In this document: positions 4,275 to 19,060 of the stretch, in pieces
How positions within the stretch are numbered: the stretch's first letter is position 1
Layout: each line of letters opens with the position of its first letter
Assembly (NCBI RefSeq): GCF_003473485.1
Contig: NC_053046.1
Location: forward strand, 42,121,832-42,185,831
Direction of reading: 5' to 3'
DNA length: 64,000 bases
From: Medicago truncatula
Lineage: Eukaryota; Streptophyta; Magnoliopsida; Fabales; Fabaceae
The notes under the pieces: model-generated
Told to the model about the DNA's origin: nothing
Seen by the model: the letters and a program-made list of their open reading frames with translations, nothing else
Databases searched by the model: none
Position numbers and translations under genes: made by a program

Positions 4275-7200
4275 ATGTTCTTCCATAAGCTTTTCTCCCG
4301 TGTTCCAGTTACCATTTCCGGAACCTCGATTCTCTCAGCTCCGCGAATCCCTCAACAACACTTCCACAACTTCTCCAATCAATTACATTCCCTCATCATT
4401 CCTCATTCTACCAACAAGGTTCATTTCTACATTTGCTCATAAATTTTTATTTTTTTGCATTTTTTTCGTGCTGTAGGATTTACCTAGGGCTATAGGTTTT
4501 TTTTTTTTTTTTTACAAGTTTAGAAATTTATGATTAGAAATGAAAAGAGTGTTGGGGTGGCACATATCGTAGAAAAGACGGTGGAAATTAGACTTACATT
4601 GTTTAGGCATGTAGAGAGAAGACAGACCTGTAGATTATGTAGTAAGGAGAGAGAGTAGATGATACCAAGGATAGTCAAATCGTTAGAGGCAGAGGAAGAC
4701 CTAGAAAAAATATAAGAGAAAGATCTAGAGATTAATGAGTTGGATAATATGGTGTATTTGATCAATGTATTGGACCACACTTAGTGCGATAAACCTTAGT
4801 TTGTTTGTTATTGTTGTAAGTTTTAAAATTTAGGGTTATGGTTGCTTCTATTTTGGATATTCAATTATTCATATTGTTCAAAGTTGTATTCTAGATTAGC
4901 TAACCTAATTATTTCTTTATCACCTTTTTTTCCGGGTTTTAAACTGTTTTGCAATTCCGTTTGAATTCTGATGTTTAGAAGGAATGAAAAAAACTATCTG
5001 AATGTCATTTTAGGGTTTAGAAAAGCAGCTGAATAATCTCTCATTGGTCCTTTTGCTGCTGTTGGTTTTGATTGTCCATTAAGCAAGTTTTTTTTTTTCC
5101 TTCTTTTTTTTTCTTTCCGACAAGTAAAAGAATTTTATTAATAATAATAATGGCGTCCGGTGCAGTATGAATGTAGACACACTCCACCCACCTTCTACGA
5201 AAGGTTGTAAAGGGTCTACGTTATCATGTGCTAGACACCCAGACAATCAAAAGTTACTAAGGCGAAGTCCACAAGACTCTATTCGATACAATATTCTTTT
5301 GACAAAATTCCTATAATACACCCTGAAGTACACCTGTAATACACCACTTAGATGAGATAAATTGCTTCAGGTGATATGAATTAGACTGCCTGCACCTTAC
5401 AGTAATTGTTGCACCAAGCCCTTTACACAATAACCACAACTACATAATGTCTACCCTTATTGACTACACGAGTATATATGATTTAAATTAAGTGGATTCT
5501 AAAAGATCAATCAATATGTATTTCATTTGCTCCTTCTTTTGCTCAACTGCATCTTCTCGTCTGTGGTAGAAGCCAACATTTAAAGCTCCATTCCAGTAGT
5601 AAATGAACTCCAAACAATTAGCATTTCCTGCACAAGCCACTTGAGTCTGATTTCTGAAACCAACCAGTAAGCATTTTATTTGAGCAATTATGCAGGCTGG
5701 AAAATAGTCCTCGGCAGCTTATCCATTGTTGCCATTGCAATTACAAAGTACAACCTCCCTAGAAAAAAGATAGCTTGTTTTATCCTACTTTCGCCAAGTC
5801 ATCTGCAACACTACTCGCCTCGCGGTTACCATGTAATAAGGAAACCTTCAATACTATTTGCCAAGTCACTCATCCTTCCATGTTTGGTCCTACTTTCGCC
5901 AAGTCACTTAATCAATATTATTCCGATCTGGCCGAAACACAGCTTGCACAGACTGCATAGTTTGCAGCAGTAGCACCCACATACATCAAGCACTAGACCA
6001 AAGCTAATATAGCCTCATCCTTGCTAAAAACCACACCTAACCGAACACACCAATCTTGGATACACTAAGGAATTCTCATATAGGCCAAATAAAAGCATAG
6101 CAACACATCAAACACAGGACATCCACTCCCACTTCATCATCAAAACTTTGACTTCAGGGGCACTTCCAAAACTCCACAGTTCCATTTTCTGGCCAACACA
6201 CTAACTTAGAATACACACCAAACTCATTTTCCAAAACAAAGTAAATAATGAGCTCATCAAGCTCCAACTACATCTCTTTAGCGAACTCCATACATGTATG
6301 CAACACAAATGCCACTCCAAATATACACATGCTCCTTAATAGCCACACACCGTAATCAATCCTTCCCAGCAAATAACAACATACATCAACATCCTCTCTA
6401 AACCTTGAATTTACTTCATTTCACTAATCCTTTTATTTTCTTTAATACTATCTATTGCAATTTGCAACAGACCGTAATTTCCAATGCTCCCATTGAGCAC
6501 TCCTAAATGTGCCAATGCTATTGCATCTACTACCGAAAATAAATCGAATTTCCATTGAAAGTTGGTCCTTCTTTTGCTAGCTCATCTGCTATGGAATTTC
6601 TTTCCACCAGTATGCTCGCGGCTGAGGCAGAAGAATCATACCGGTCTGGACACAACAGTACCCATGTACTCCGACTTATCCCAACAGGCCATATAGAAAA
6701 ACACTGTAGTTGAGCTTTCATCTTACGATGACTGATTTCCTCCATCCCCCCATTTTCATGTACTATTTTAGGGTTGTGTTTAATGTTTATTACTTTTCGA
6801 GGGATAGACAGCTTCTAGGGACTTTATATATATGAAGTTGTGATAATATGGAGATTATTTATAGGACTATTACTACTATTCTATACTTTTAGACCAAGTA
6901 TCTTAAAATTCTCTATTCAGTAAATTATTGATAATGCATTCTAAAATTCTCATTTAGTTCCATATATGCTTTTTAATATTCCAGCTATTTCCAGTTCAAG
7001 TCAATTTCTTATGTCCATCTATAAATTCATCAACTTCAAAATTTGGATTTTCTTCATCAGCCTCAGTTGAAACAGAAGGGAAAGAAGGGAATAATGTGCA
7101 TAATGGCAATTTCACAAGTGCTGACCCTGCAAAAACAAGTGAAGAAGCAGAGGAAATTGATCAGCCTGGACAAGCCAAGTCTGCAGATCAAACAGAAGAA

Positions 7201-12322: not shown

Positions 12323-13790
12323 TGACAACATTGAGCGCATGCAAATTATTGACATCCATTTATGTATATGGATAAAATAAAATAAACCCAACATGCGCCT
12401 TTTTAATTATATTTTTTATGTCTTCCCTTCCTTGTATTTGTATTAGCATGAGTTTAATGACATGATCATACTGTTATTAATTTAAAAAAGTTACAAGGTT
12501 ATATTTAGTAATCACATTAATTTGTATTTTTTCATACACAAGAGTCATGAATCGAATCTCTGATTGCATGTTAGTGGAGTCAAATCTCCAATTAATTGTT
12601 AGTATGTGAGACAATATGTTAATCTAAGATAAAATATTAACATGAAAATTAATTTGAGGAACAAGAAGAGATGAAAAAGGGATATCCATGACGGCAATAT
12701 TTTTATGAGTTTTTTAATGCATCGAATGAAAAAAGATAACCATTTGAGTTGGTTTAGTGATGTTGGAGTGTGATCATTTTTAAGATTTCATATTTGATTC
12801 TTCTCGATGTCAATTTGGATGGACTAATTTAACTTATTAAAAAAATTAAATAAAAGAAGATGGAAAATGAAGTAGAGTGGAAGATAAGGGTAACCGAAAT
12901 GGTCTATTTACCATTGTTAGCTCATTCACATGTTTCACTGAAAATTATTATCGTACACGTCAAAAATTAAGGAACTCATTTTATGTTATTAAATGAAGCC
13001 GGATGAAAGGAAGGGTAGCAAAAAATGTCCATTTATCATTGTCAGTTTTCATTGAAAATTATCGTAGTACACGTCAAGCATCTTCATTGATATGAATTTA
13101 AGGAACTCACTTATGTTTTTTAATGTTTCATGCATACCAGCTCAATTTTATAATACTAATCTAATTTTTACTTCAATGAAAGGTTTCATCCAAAGTTCCT
13201 TAACCCACATATATCATTTTTCTCTCTTCCATATTTCATGTTCACACTCCCATTTTAACACTTTTTAAATGCATAAAATCAATACTTTAATTTATCATTT
13301 TAAAATTCCTTGAATAAGCAATTTGACTAAATCTAATTCTATAGGATAATCCTTTATATCTAATCCTAGCAAACATGTTTACCCTAATTGCCAAACCCTA
13401 ATCTTAATTTTTTGGCTCCAAATCATTCTGGCCGTTAGATAAATCTATGTTGATCTCTACACAATCCATCTATTTCCAATAAACATTTTCTTTCAATTTT
13501 AAATCATAAGTGCATTGGTAACGTACGCTTCATACCAATATATTCTCCTCCACTTTCCCACGGCAGACTTCTCAACTTCTTCTGTAGGTTTCCCATGTAT
13601 TGCTACTATTTTCAAACAAAAAACTGATATAATTTTTTTAGGCTTCCTTTTCTAAAAAAAATTCTCTTTTCTTCTTTGTGTCCCAACCTTTCTCTTTCGT
13701 ATGATCTTCTCCATAACTCTTTCTTATGGAGCTTTTTCACCCTTCCCATCTGTTACATCCATTCATTTTTCTCCTTCTTCCACTTTGATT
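12323..13790. other. LTP copy 1 downstream spacer with an approximate 100-bp duplication
   Basis: 12890-12987 and 13016-13117 are diverged direct copies sharing CATTGTYAG, CACTGAAAATTAT-like, CGTACACGTCAA-like and AAGGAACTCA words. 13540-13790 is CT-rich and could be a leader for the fragment that follows. No gene is visible. Confidence 0.5.
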
Positions 13791-13799
13791 CGAAAATCA

Positions 13800-14190
13800 T
13801 AAACGCCATGTCCTTCTGATTCCTCTCTCCTCCGCGCCAACCACCTCCCCTCCACTGCCCGCCGCTTCTCCAAACAAGAACTCCGATAAAGCTCTCTTCT
13901 ATGGTATTGACAATCACCTCCGCAACGCTACTTCTCCGCCTCCGTTCTCCGGCATCGACGCTTCCATCGTCGTCTCCGTCCGTCCTGCATCGGAAGGATT
14001 ATCTTCTACTTTCACAGCCACGGAGAATGGTTCCACTTGGATTGCTATCGGTGGTCAACTCTCCAGCTACGACTGGAATCTAATCCATTCCGTAACCGTC
14101 CGTTCACATCTCGATGAAATCAATTCAATTTGCAGAGTCTGGCCAGAGAGTGCCGCCGCTGGAACTGAATCTGTTTCTGTTGCTGGTAAT
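13800..14190 (+). pseudogene. Unrecognised coding fragment at the head of the mosaic
   Basis: From about 13847 one frame stays open for over 110 codons with coding-like composition, rich in C at third positions unlike its surroundings. It includes DKALFYGIDNHLRNATSPPP, IVVSVRPASEGLS, WIAIGGQLSSYDWNLIHSVT and VWPESAAAGTE. It has no ATG at a sensible place in this frame and runs into AT-rich DNA after about 14190. I do not recognise the family. The continuous frame suggests a captured or truncated piece of a real gene. Confidence 0.5.
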
Positions 14191-14634
14191 TATTTTAAAT
14201 TACACAGAGAAAAATGTTTTGTTTATGATTTGTTTCTTTATTGAAACTCATTTGAATCTATGCTCATTTGGTGCTTTGCATTCAAACTGTTTGATTATAT
14301 GCTCATTGATTATGTGCTTAAAGTGAACATGTGATAGATGCAAACTTAAAGTAAAGGAAATCTTGAAAAAATTGACGGTCTCTAATATGATTTATTTACA
14401 TTCTTTAAATTAAAAATATATACATTATGCTGTCAATTGTTATTATCCGAAGTTAAACAAAACCAATTGTTCTTTGTATGTGATTTGTGTTGATTAATGA
14501 ATGACATGGGTATTTACAGCTGAGACAAATACATAACAGGGGAAGGTGACAGTTTCGGGGAATGTGGATCAGTTTCTTATATGGCAGTGTTTGTGAATCA
14601 ATTTTTTTTTCTTACTTTTGCCTCCACCACCTGC

Positions 14635-14739
14635 TTGATATAATCCTTTGATGAACTTTAACCTATAATTTGATTTTTCTATCAAATATTTGAAACTCAT
14701 TTCTAGAGTAATATGGAAATAGTCTTTGGAGGTATTTTA
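14635..14739 (+). repeat. 105-bp perfect direct repeat, first copy
   Basis: Identical base for base to 16116-16220, 1481 bp downstream, where it is part of an intron of the RPA-like gene. Here it lies upstream of the EGY3 fragment. Complete identity in non-coding DNA means a recent duplication or conversion. Confidence 0.95.
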
Positions 14740-14877
14740 GATACAGTTAATTCATGTTTTTGAAATTTCTAACCAGGATTGTTTTCTTTCTGTCATGTGG
14801 TGGTCGTATATACATTTGTTATTATACACTATCCTAAATTACTCTATCCACTAATGCTGCTAATTTGGTTTGTGCAG

Positions 14878-15092
14878 TTAAAGAGTTGTTTTGGTTTTGA
14901 CACATTTTTCACTACGAATGTTCGTAGATTTGGTGACGGAGGCATTTTCATTGGGAATTTAAGGAGACCAATTGATGAAGTCATTCCAAAGTTGGAGAAG
15001 AAACTCTCTGATGCAGCAGGTAGAGATCTCAAATTCATGGCAGAGAGTACCTGTTTGGTAATGCCATCTTTTTGTTCTTCTATGAACCACAT
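14878..15092 (+). pseudogene. EGY3: EGY3-like exon fragment with an inverted end
   Basis: After an acceptor-like TTGTGCAG, 14878-15028 encodes LKSCFGFDTFFTTNVRRFGD, GGIFIGNLRRPIDEV and IPKLEKKLSDAAGRDL. This matches the plastid site-2-protease-like protein EGY3 just before its membrane part. The residues that should follow are on the opposite strand: read in reverse, 15092 to about 15051 encodes MWFIEEQKDGITKQ and then a donor GTACTC. So the exon end and the start of its intron have been flipped in place. No other EGY3 exon is seen nearby. This is a dead fragment. Confidence 0.85.
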
Positions 15093-15975
15093 GCCTTAAT
15101 CATGTGGTATGAGATCAACTAAATAGTTAATTTTTCTTTGATTTTTGACATTGTGAAATTATTTGTTATTGCTTTATGGTGTTGTTTGACTCCAGTGAAA
15201 GTGATTATGAGAATAATAATCTACGTTTTCTTAACTATTTTTGCCAATTTTTACCTTAATGAAAACCTGCAATTTTGATCAGGCATTTTGAGAACTTTAG
15301 AAATCTATCAATTTGCCAAAAAAATCATTGATTTGAGTAGTTGATCATCAGGTTTATTTCAATGATGGTTGTAGGTATTGCAGTGACAATATAGTTTCGC
15401 ATGGTTCTCATCTCACACTTCGATTTTGATTTTTCTTTCACAAATAAAGGTAATTGTTGGGTTTTGTTTGTTTGTCAATTTAGGAATTTTTCGTACTGGG
15501 ATTTTGCAAACAGAAGTAATTTTTCTTTTTTCCTGTGAAGGTTTAGTGGCAAAGTAACTTTTAACAATTAAAATGTAAAGATTGGTGCAACGCATATGCA
15601 ACTTTATGAATGTATGATGTGCACGCATTGAAGGTACAAAAATACCCCAACAGGGAAGAGCTTTTTTAATATGCTACACATAGATTCTCATGTTTAGATA
15701 TGTATATCTTCATTCATTTTTTTTCTTGACCTTAACCCTCCTTTTCTACTTGAAGTTTTTGATTGAGTTTATGTCTTTCAAAACTATTTTGGAATCCACA
15801 GCTGAAAAAGATTAAACTTATGGGACTTACATTTTAAGATTTGAAGTACGATTTTTTCAGAGCAGGAATAATTAAGGGTCACGCTCATATAGGGTGATTT
15901 GATTACTGTATATATTTTGATTGCTTGGGTTGTTGTATTAATACTCATTGTGTCATTGTGTTGTTATCATTACAG

Positions 15976-16960
15976 ATTCAAGTTGCATGTCCAGGTGATG
16001 GACAATACAGGATCAACAAGTATTATCCTTTTTGACTGTAACATTGCAAATTATGTGGGAAGGAGTGTTCAAGACCTAATTGATGCTCAGGGGCAGGTGA
16101 TATAACTAAACATGTTTGATATAATCCTTTGATGAACTTTAACCTATAATTTGATTTTTCTATCAAATATTTGAAACTCATTTCTAGAGTAATATGGAAA
16201 TAGTCTTTGGAGGTATTTTAAACAAATTTGATCCTGTATTAACCTTGCCATTTCGTGGTATGATTTTTGAGCTCTGATGATTATCTGCTTACACTACAGG
16301 CCAACAATTCTCTTGGTTGCCCCAAAGAATTGGGGCTGTTGGTTGGTAAACAGATGTTGTTTAAAGTTGAGATCACTGATTGGAATTTGGTACACAATTG
16401 GCGAAATCATGGTGTCAAGAGGACTTCGGATGATGCTGATCTGATCAAAAGGTTTATTGAGAAACATAATATTAAGGAGGTAATTTTTTATAGGACTTTA
16501 TCATTAAGGTGGTAATTTTTTATAGGACTTTATTACGTAAATTAAATTAGATCATTCACTTTAAGAATAAAAAGTTCAAAATGTATTGTTTTCAGATTGC
16601 TGAAGAGGATGATTCTTGCAATAACAATGTTCCGCTAACACAAATTGGTGAAGCGCGATTGGAGGTATAAACGGTTCAGATTGCACTTTTTAAATGTTTT
16701 TAAAATATTCTAAACCATAGGAAATTAAACTAATAATGCAATATTTTCTCCATTTACAGAGCCGCCTTATTGAGTTTGGTGATTCAACCAAAACTGGGAA
16801 TGATCTGGTGGATAACGAGCAAACACCTGGTAGCAAATCTGGAGGGAAAAGGTTTGCTGATGCAGAGGATTCTGCTATACTTGGCACCGAAGAGATTGGA
16901 GATAGATCAATTAACAAGCTGCAGAAGATGATATGTGTCAAGGTTGAGAAACTGAACTAA
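15976..16960 (+). pseudogene. RPA70-like C-terminal domain, probably Helitron-associated
   Basis: Four exons join in phase (15976-16096, 16300-16479, 16596-16664, 16760-16960) and end in a proper stop. They encode FKLHVQVMDNTGSTSIILFD, GRSVQDLIDAQGQ, VGKQMLFKVEITDWN, NHGVKRTSDDADLI and a KRFADAEDS tail. This matches the last OB-fold of replication protein A 70-kDa-like proteins, which bind single-stranded DNA and have expanded in plants with Helitron transposons. The first two OB-folds are absent upstream, where the EGY3 fragment and the unrecognised piece sit instead. The part present has no internal stop. It could still be transcribed as a truncated protein, but I treat it as a remnant. Confidence 0.75.
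16116..16220 (+). repeat. 105-bp perfect direct repeat, second copy
   Basis: Lies within the intron between the first two RPA-like exons and is identical to 14635-14739. Because the intron here is intact, this copy is probably the source and the upstream one the duplicate. Confidence 0.95.
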
Positions 16961-18130
16961 TGGGGAGGATGAAGTCCATAATTTTAAATTTCTGTTTTGT
17001 CTGATACCAGATTCTGTGTTGGTTCTGGATCAATATGTTACGTTTATTTGCTTTAGACTATTTCCCATTTTGGTGTAATGTTTTTTGAACCTTAGGCCCT
17101 ACTGCCTTTTGTTTGTTGCCCGTTTATATTTCTGTCAACTGTTTTGTCTGAATCAATCTAAATATTTCCTCCTATTGATGTTTCAACTGTTTGAGGTTTT
17201 ACATTTATCAGTCTAAGTGTTTTACATATGCAATGTGTTTATTCTGACTGTTTTTGTAAGCCTATTAGCTTAAACACGTGATATTATTACAAAGCTATCT
17301 GCGCAGATGTTTCCGAATTTCATCTTTTACTATATGCGCATGATATTTGAGATGAATTTTGACAATTTGTTAATACTTTTTAGCAAATTGTTATGTTTGG
17401 TTACTTTTCAAGCATACTTTGACCCGTCAGTTTGTGAATGGTCATCTCCAATGCTCACAAATATTCATTTTGATAAATGGAACCTTGCATTTTGAAAAAT
17501 ATTAATTAGTTTATCTAAGTCCTGATTTTTTTTAGAGTTTATCACCTTATATTATAAGTATTTCATATTTTATATAGTCATTTATATGACAATTATAAAT
17601 TGATGAACATTTGACAACACGTTAAAAATCATTTTATTCCTAAATTTAATTATTCTACGTAAGTATAAAACTGTTAGGGACTATATACTTAATATTATCA
17701 TATAGTGGTTAGGTAAAAAAAAATTTGATCACAGTACGATAACTTACAACTTCAGATTAATATATGTTAAATATACTTTGATTACCGTCACATGATAAAC
17801 TATAGTTGGGGAAGCGTTAAGGACCTCCATGGATTGTAGAGGCTAAGCATGTAAACTACAAGCTGTATATGACTGTGTCTAATTAAGTTGTAAATGGATA
17901 GTTAATGCAAATTAGACTGCTTAAATGCAACATGACACATGTTTGGCGTTTTTAAATTTCTTGCTGAGTTATTGTGTTTCATCAAGCGAATTTATTTAAA
18001 AGCAATGTATCCAATACTGCCGCATCTTGATCGTACTTTATCAAACTCTACGTTAACATAATCGTGTTCTATCATAAAAAAACAACCACTGTCATTTATA
18101 TATCATCAAGTTACATTTTTAACTATATAT
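16961..18130. other. AT-rich stretch between RPA-like exons and Helitron end
   Basis: No gene found. Probably 3' UTR and tail of the RPA-like gene, and the distal part of the Helitron if the two belong together. A few short open frames have no recognisable similarity. Confidence 0.4.
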
Positions 18131-18162
18131 GACCCGTGCGGCAGCACGGGTAGACGATCTAG
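18131..18162 (+). mobile_element. Helitron 3' terminus (hairpin plus CTAG)
   Basis: GACCCGTGC-GGCA-GCACGGG forms a 7-bp-stem hairpin (18133-18150) followed by 8 bases and CTAG at 18159-18162, then T. A GC-rich hairpin about 10 bases before CTRR, with insertion before T, is the diagnostic Helitron 3' end. I could not find a convincing 5' TC end upstream, so the length is unknown. It may include the RPA-like and EGY3 fragments. Confidence 0.85.
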
Positions 18163-18420
18163 TGATATATATAGTGAAAAAATCCTAACAAAATTATCAC
18201 AAACAAGAGGAGAAGATAAGTTGTTAAAAGCCCCTACTAACCATTCACGCTAGCATGTGTTGAATACATACAATGGAAACCACTTCGTGACCGGTTGGGG
18301 ATAAAATCCCTCGCGACAACAAACATTATTCATTAAGAAAAAGTCGAGTTAAAGATTGGTATTGAATCCCGGACATTAAATTCCCTATGCAATATGATAC
18401 ACAAATACCAATAATATATA

Positions 18421-19060
18421 TACTACCTCCGTTCCTAATTATACGATCCTTTTGAAAAAATAACGAGAATTAAGATAGTGGATATTTGTATTAAATATGT
18501 TTGTAATTACAATTGTTTTTACAAATTTATCCTTCAAGAGAGAGAGTTGGTTTATATTTTCAACATGTTATTTATTGCTGATTGAAGAAAAAGATGAATA
18601 ATAAATAAGGGCATGTATGTAAAGAAATAATTAATGTAGTTGGAAATAGCAAAGAGGTCTTATAAAAAAGGACAAAAAAAATTCTCAAAAGGGTCTTATA
18701 ATATAGGCAAAATTACACTTTTAGTCCCTTAACTTAATTTCAGGTAACAGTTTGGTCCTTTATCTTTTTTTTCATTTCAATTTGGTCCTTTTTGTCCATT
18801 TTTATATACATTTTCAAGCTTCAAATCTAATATTCTTATGCAAACATAGACGAGGATCATAGATTTGAAGATTGAAAGACCATAAGAAAATAAAATCATG
18901 AATTTTAAGCTTAAAAATTCATATGAAAATGGACAAAAAGGACCAAATTGAAATGAAAAAAAGATAAAGGACCAAACTGTTGCTTGAAATTAAGTTTAGG
19001 GACTAAAAGTGTAATTTTGCTTATAATATAATACTTCATCCTTATTTTATTAGTATATTT
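18421..19060. mobile_element. Stowaway-like MITE remnant hosting a second MITE
   Basis: The left end TACTACCTCCGTTCCTAATT is close to the Stowaway (Tc1/mariner) consensus CTCCCTCCGTTCC. The interior TTATAA words are typical. The right end has decayed, and the element is split by the 315-bp MITE at 18706-19020. Confidence 0.55.
18706..19020. mobile_element. Mutator-type MITE with inverted repeats of about 95 bp
   Basis: GCAAAATTACACTTTTAGTC begins the left arm and its reverse complement ends the right arm; the match extends through ATTTGGTCC and TTTGTCCA. TTATAATATA (10 bp) flanks both sides (18696-18705 and 19021-19030), fitting the 9-11-bp duplications of Mutator-like elements. The arms make up most of the element. 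Confidence 0.85.

Follow-up and report, generated by a model that had tools for sequence, protein, structure and literature searches.

A split and partly reversed EGY3 exon inside a Medicago truncatula Helitron, with junctions suggestive of templated repair

Helitrons begin with TC at the 5' end and finish with CTRR at the 3' end, the latter preceded by a short hairpin, and they insert between A and T without target duplication. The mode by which they acquire fragments of host genes is still debated. Several described systems bear on the question. Plant Helitrons capture pieces of multiple genes and do so stepwise (PMC3288121, PMC2575219). For human-chimpanzee microinversions edged by short inverted repeats, microhomology-based break repair has been proposed (PMC8755829), and human Pol theta extends stem-loops that are begun by just two terminal bases (PMC11292364). 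The template switching treated in PMC13317346 is that of LTR retrotransposons.

We analysed a 64,000-nt stretch of the M. truncatula genome (C5:42121832-42185831, hereafter the window, whose positions are given without prefix) and searched the 430-Mb assembly of 42 contigs for related sequences. The original prediction for 14878-15115, a micro-inversion through the exon-intron border of an EGY3 fragment, was confirmed by alignment to a donor gene on C4. It overlooked that the fragment lies within a Helitron, that the sequence to the right of the inversion is a repeat family, here called R, not EGY3 intron, and that the right arm of the hairpin most likely comes from R; a simple in-place flip of EGY3 sequence does not describe the event. 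The features are as follows:

13350-18162, plus strand: non-autonomous Helitron, 5' end TCCTTTATATCTAAT..., 3' hairpin CCCGTGCGGCAGCACGGG followed by CTAG; recognized by a sister on C8 with different flanks and by many genomic copies sharing its ends
13823-14179, plus strand: coding-like patch, by sequence match 90% identical to C7:41102581-41102939
14629-14739, plus strand: copy of the Helitron's own segment 16110-16220 (109 of 111 identical)
14822-14877, plus strand: 56 nt of the upstream EGY3 intron, acceptor AG included, matching C4 locus L008
14878-15026, plus strand: forward part of the EGY3-like exon, L008 4541-4689 (143 of 149 identical)
15024-15026, no strand: junction J1, 3-nt microhomology AGA that fits both the forward and the inverted piece
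15024-15089, minus strand: inverted EGY3 piece with last codons, GT donor (15050/15049) and intron start, L008 4700-4763 (59 of 66 identical, 89%)
15025-15031, plus strand: GATCTCA, read from the letters as the left arm of an inverted repeat (7 nt) whose partner is TGAGATC at 15110-15116
15086-15108, no strand: hairpin at junction J2, ACCACATG-CCTTAAT-CATGTGGT, arms 15086-15093 and 15101-15108
15095-15212, plus strand: piece of interspersed repeat R (L018-L021, L028, L030); 15095-15116 and 15110-15212 match R, with ~20 nt of R absent between them
15974-16477, plus strand: exon-like stretches 15974-16091 and 16339-16477, with sequence relatives elsewhere

The Helitron is 4.8 kb long and is composed of patches of various origin. 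Its 5' end, TCCTTT..., starts at 13350 after an A (13349); its 3' end is a CCCGTGC-GGCA-GCACGGG hairpin, then CTAG at 18159-18162, then a T (18163). The arrangement A|TC...CTAG|T is present both in the window and on C8, and the flanks of the two places are unrelated. By these criteria, 13350-18162 is a Helitron in its termini and its A|T target. Among 55 loci compared, a set that leaves out the 16 covering the window and C8 copies, 13 have a match that starts exactly at 13349 (L027 and L034 are one locus), and in 10 the match ends exactly at 18163. A genome search with the PF14214 (Rep) profile, in which 150 of 154 candidates were scored, listed 126 matches; none of those listed places a Rep/helicase within 13350-18162, and the element is therefore called non-autonomous. 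Three places that match the 3' end at 88% (C7:52150114, C7:36829141 and C3:21444788) have a PF14214 match ~4.2 kb upstream on the same strand and may be autonomous relatives. Another Helitron-like copy, L071 (C1:55096020-55097838), matches 16548-17888 at 92% and the 3' end (17956-18164) at 94%; the 5.5-kb stretch of it that was compared has no match to the EGY3 locus. Just outside the Helitron, at 18693-19034, a 100-nt inverted repeat (arms 84% alike, 142 nt between them) resembles a MITE-type element.

The sister Helitron, C8:29459109-29464363, differs from the window copy at 44 of 4817 aligned bases (99.1% identity, gaps not counted) and carries an extra 411-bp tandem stretch that the window copy does not have. 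The interval 15000-15130, both junctions included, is letter for letter identical in the two. Since the sister has the same junctions, the inversion predates the separation of the copies, and the order that we prefer is one scar, now present in two places by Helitron transposition after the event. Neither an uninverted nor an empty copy of the Helitron was found in this genome among the best candidates scored.

With 14860-15135 as query, a DNA search hit the window itself, C8:29460646-29460921 (99%) and, as the third and last place, C4:2376022-2376262, to which the first 167 query bases align on the plus strand (96%) and the next 66 on the minus strand (89%). The C4 gene (L008) is continuous and open across the exon. 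Its name, EGY3 (an M50-like chloroplast protein), is presumed, having been carried over from the original prediction; its joined exons match PF02163 (M50) at 9.2e-06 and 25.6 bits, below the curated cut-off of 27.2, and single exons gave one Pfam match, at 0.0015. The forward piece, 14822-15026, corresponds to L008 4483-4689 (96%); the exon begins at 14878, preceded by ...TTTGTGCAG, and reads LKSCFGFDTFFTTNVRRFGDGGIFIGNLRRPIDEVIPKLEKKLSDAAGRD up to 15026. The codons that follow in the gene, and then the donor site, had been predicted to lie on the opposite strand, and they do: the minus strand from 15095 to 15051 reads GMWFIEEQKDGITKQ, followed by GT at 15050/15049, the last codons within the inverted piece being MWFIEEQKDGITKQ. 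That piece, 15024-15089, is C4 2376262-2376199 reversed (L008 4763-4700), and its exon part is identical to C4 at 37 of 38 positions. Absence of this reverse-strand match from the real gene had been named as grounds for abandoning the inversion; the intact C4 gene does contain the matching sequence, and the E-value of the match in the genome search (1.5e-15) means that it is not due to chance.

With the intact gene from the same genome as reference, both breakpoints could be mapped, and the inverted part proved shorter than the span first proposed: the flip lies inside that span, is confined to 15024/27-15089, and belongs to a patch that also takes in 56 nt of upstream intron. On C4 the two donor pieces do not overlap, nearly abut and point apart, which argues for one event or one captured molecule. 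The 10 bp between them, L008 4690-4699 (AGTTGTCTTA), are missing from the Helitron relative to today's C4 gene. A high-copy repeat in the C4 intron (L008 ~4334-4485; the best 40 of 1104 first-look candidates were scored) stops near the point where the captured homology begins on the left. It may have arrived after the EGY3 capture, and its position beside that edge makes 14822 uncertain as a capture edge. Open frames run over the patch on the plus (14773-15099) and minus (14844-15095) strands; annotators should take them for transposon cargo, not genes.

At J1, the GATCTCA/TGAGATC repeat brackets the inverted block. The ~22 nt at this end of the inverted piece score 24 when aligned to the EGY3 intron, a value reached by 1 of 2000 shuffles; against the segment of R that is missing on the right they score 25 with L018 (1 of 2000 shuffles) and 13-22 with the other four R copies. 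The letters CATGAATTTGAGATC belong to this end, which is contested between EGY3 intron and R.

At J2, the short inverted repeat predicted for the far breakpoint is present as ACCACATG and CATGTGGT. A perfect stem of at least 8 bp appeared in 23 of 2000 dinucleotide shuffles of 14822-15213, under criteria chosen after the fact (loop 3-12 nt, within 12 nt of the breakpoint on either side), so the stem is suggestive and not overwhelming. The left arm consists of CATG and TGGT: EGY3 has CTTA in place of CATG, and it is with TGGT (L008 4700-4703) that the homology to EGY3 opens. This arm stands left of the R-side letters CTTAATCATGTGG.

To the right, all or part of 15110-15212 matches six R loci at 79-88%, from a family spread over C1, C3, C4 and C7. 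That match led us to reject a clean flip within EGY3 in which intron sequence would pick up again after the inversion (GAGATCAA...), although by eye this had looked possible. In the multiple alignment R extends further left, as CTTATCATATGGTATCAGATC in L030, then ~20 nt, then ...TAAATAG; the Helitron has CTTAATCATGTGGTATGAGATC (15095-15116) and then AACTAAATAG. Comparison of 15095-15116 with five of the six R loci gave shuffles as good in 0 of 1000 for L030, 11 for L020, 51 for L018, 63 for L019 and 86 for L028, making the support weak in three of the five copies. Mixed as this support is, the right arm is most likely R, not EGY3, judging from the sequence comparison. A pattern search of the genome for a second R copy with the same ~20-nt gap (up to 3 mismatches) found the two Helitrons alone. 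A 9-mer, TCATGTGGT, occurs at 14793 and 15100 and was considered as a target duplication; the idea was dropped, as 126 to 290 of 300 shuffles, depending on which of five R copies was compared, matched R as well as the left flank did.

Elsewhere in the element, the patch at 13823-14179 sits in an open frame of 151 codons (13789-14244), and a Pfam search of 13801-14199 found no domain match. The 111-nt segment occurs twice in the window Helitron (14629-14739 and 16110-16220), with the last 105 nt perfect, and three times in the C8 sister (L009 5416-5526, 6897-7007 and 7308-7418), where one copy was added by the 411-bp tandem duplication; among the five copies, one of the 105 positions varies. 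The exon-like stretches at 15974-16477, possibly RPA-like, had no match in a Pfam search. Relatives of 15974-16091 lie at C1:51414308, C8:16656510, C7:24465675 and C7:9444788, two of them having a PF14214 match no more than 4 kb away. A near-tandem 31-nt duplication (97%) occupies 16471-16533, where the exon-like sequence ends and an intron-like one starts. On the left side, 14749-14809 has, besides the two Helitron copies, one weak relative, C7:47822577 (82%).

The reading that we prefer, and to which we assign an even chance, is that the scar was left by templated, microhomology-guided repair inside the Helitron during EGY3 uptake. The steps would be as follows, on the minus strand and starting from the R side. 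A broken R end, ...ACCACATGATTAAGGCATG, would snap back on its own CATG with a 7-nt loop, and copying of TGGT would give the perfect hairpin. The new TGGT would then prime on the TGGT of EGY3 (L008 4700-4703), and 64 bp would be copied to 4763, through the exon end and donor site into the intron. An AGA/TCT match would next let the end turn round and switch to the opposite strand of that donor, beside the entry point (4689), whereupon 207 bp would be copied back to 4483, with the 10 bp between the pieces left uncopied. The new end would finally be joined to the left side; later, transposition of the Helitron would put the single scar at two places. The fold-back template switch of the original prediction is plausible and is retained in this scheme, where it is refined with the jump into EGY3 and the turn-around. 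We infer the fold-back order, the occurrence of the event at capture, the enzyme (a Pol theta-like or break-induced-replication-like repair) and the identity of 15095-15116 as R.

This sequence of snap-back, jump and turn-around is preferred because it accounts at once for the hairpin, for the start of the EGY3 match at TGGT, for the 10 bp lost between the pieces, and for their AGA join and orientation. It also agrees with the rarity of the J2 stem among shuffles, with the CATG of the left arm being foreign to EGY3, with the match of 15095-15116 to R just upstream of its 15110 part (best in L030), and with the patchwork nature of a Helitron whose own 111-nt segment was copied nearby. Several observations weigh against it. 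The hairpin was tested post hoc, and the whole Helitron has 5 such stems (mean 1.3, largest 6, in 30 shuffles). Three of the five R copies back the R reading of 15095-15116 weakly, and the ~22 nt at J1 fit R (L018) as well as they fit EGY3 intron; if they are R, a fusion of EGY3 with R preceded the flip. The donor compared is today's C4 gene, whose letters at capture may have differed; the capture may have had its left limit somewhere other than 14822; and no uninverted copy that would time the event was present among the best candidates scored.

Another history, unlikely in our estimation and still the strongest competitor, is that one continuous EGY3 piece (~280 bp) was captured beside R and that a 74-bp segment was later flipped by two breaks, one inside the exon and the other where EGY3 meets R, with ~10 bp trimmed. 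A flip requires donor pieces that lie almost side by side and do not overlap, which is what C4 shows, and the microhomology at J1 is just 3 nt. However, CATG and the junction hairpin are then left to chance or end processing, and the uninverted Helitron that should have preceded the flip was not found in this genome among the best candidates scored.

Less probable again is an earlier fusion of EGY3 and R at a shared stretch, GAATTTGAGA, followed by a template switch at GATCTCA/TGAGATC that flipped the block. The 7-nt inverted repeat does lie on both sides of the block, the J1 end of the inverted piece matches the part of R that is lacking on the right (L018), R becomes continuous, in our reading, once the block is flipped back, and short inverted repeats can flip spacers by template switching (PMC8604942). 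Against this, just one of the five R copies tested outscores the EGY3 intron, and 15095-15116, if R, would have lain reversed between the exon halves, an arrangement that is hard to derive. This history, the two-break flip and templated repair must all precede the separation of the copies, since 15000-15130 is exactly shared.

Two independent EGY3 captures, in opposite orientations and at different times, would accord with the stepwise capture reported for maize Helitrons (PMC3288121), but unrelated events would have to land non-overlapping pieces from 10 bp apart side by side, and we consider this highly improbable. Assembly error, which the original prediction had allowed might hide the usual orientation, has next to no chance, as identical junctions at another locus, with different flanks and ~1% divergence, argue strongly against it.

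Returning to templated repair, a base-level junction with donor, recipient repeat and sister copy in one genome offers a case on which models of capture by templated repair can be tested. That the locus is the record of a single event of Helitron gene uptake, in which an end snaps back, jumps via 4-nt homology and copies outward both ways, is a tentative proposal that we think more doubtful than not. If it were general, Helitron capture would be a Pol theta-like templated break repair, and many divergent, near-abutting, inverted donor pairs would be expected.

The comparison with described systems is one of partial likeness. A search by titles and abstract openings found no report of an inverted half-exon in a Helitron; in the text consulted, 'inver' has 0 occurrences in PMC3288121 and 'invers' 0 in PMC2575219. 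The element resembles the gene-fragment Helitrons of maize and rice (PMC3288121, PMC2575219) in its ends, its A|T target, the lack of any Rep found, and a host-gene piece with intron parts; unlike them, it holds one captured piece that is split, with half reversed. Like human-chimpanzee microinversions (PMC8755829), it has a short flip edged by short inverted repeats, but those are 17-33 nt long and mostly pure in-place flips, whereas here ~65 nt are inverted, 10 bp are lost and a foreign repeat lies on the right. A template-switch microinversion in the strict sense is an exact flip between inverted repeats with unchanged flanks; in this Helitron the right flank is R, and 10 bp are missing relative to C4. 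Foldback templated insertions in yeast (PMC11724301) share the few-base snap-back priming and the short inverted copies, while here the process would be read from an old scar and would include, in addition to what is described for foldback insertions and Pol theta, a jump into a distant gene. Capture of genes by Helitrons is known, and so are microinversions; the present case is a well-resolved combination and an ordinary kind of scar.
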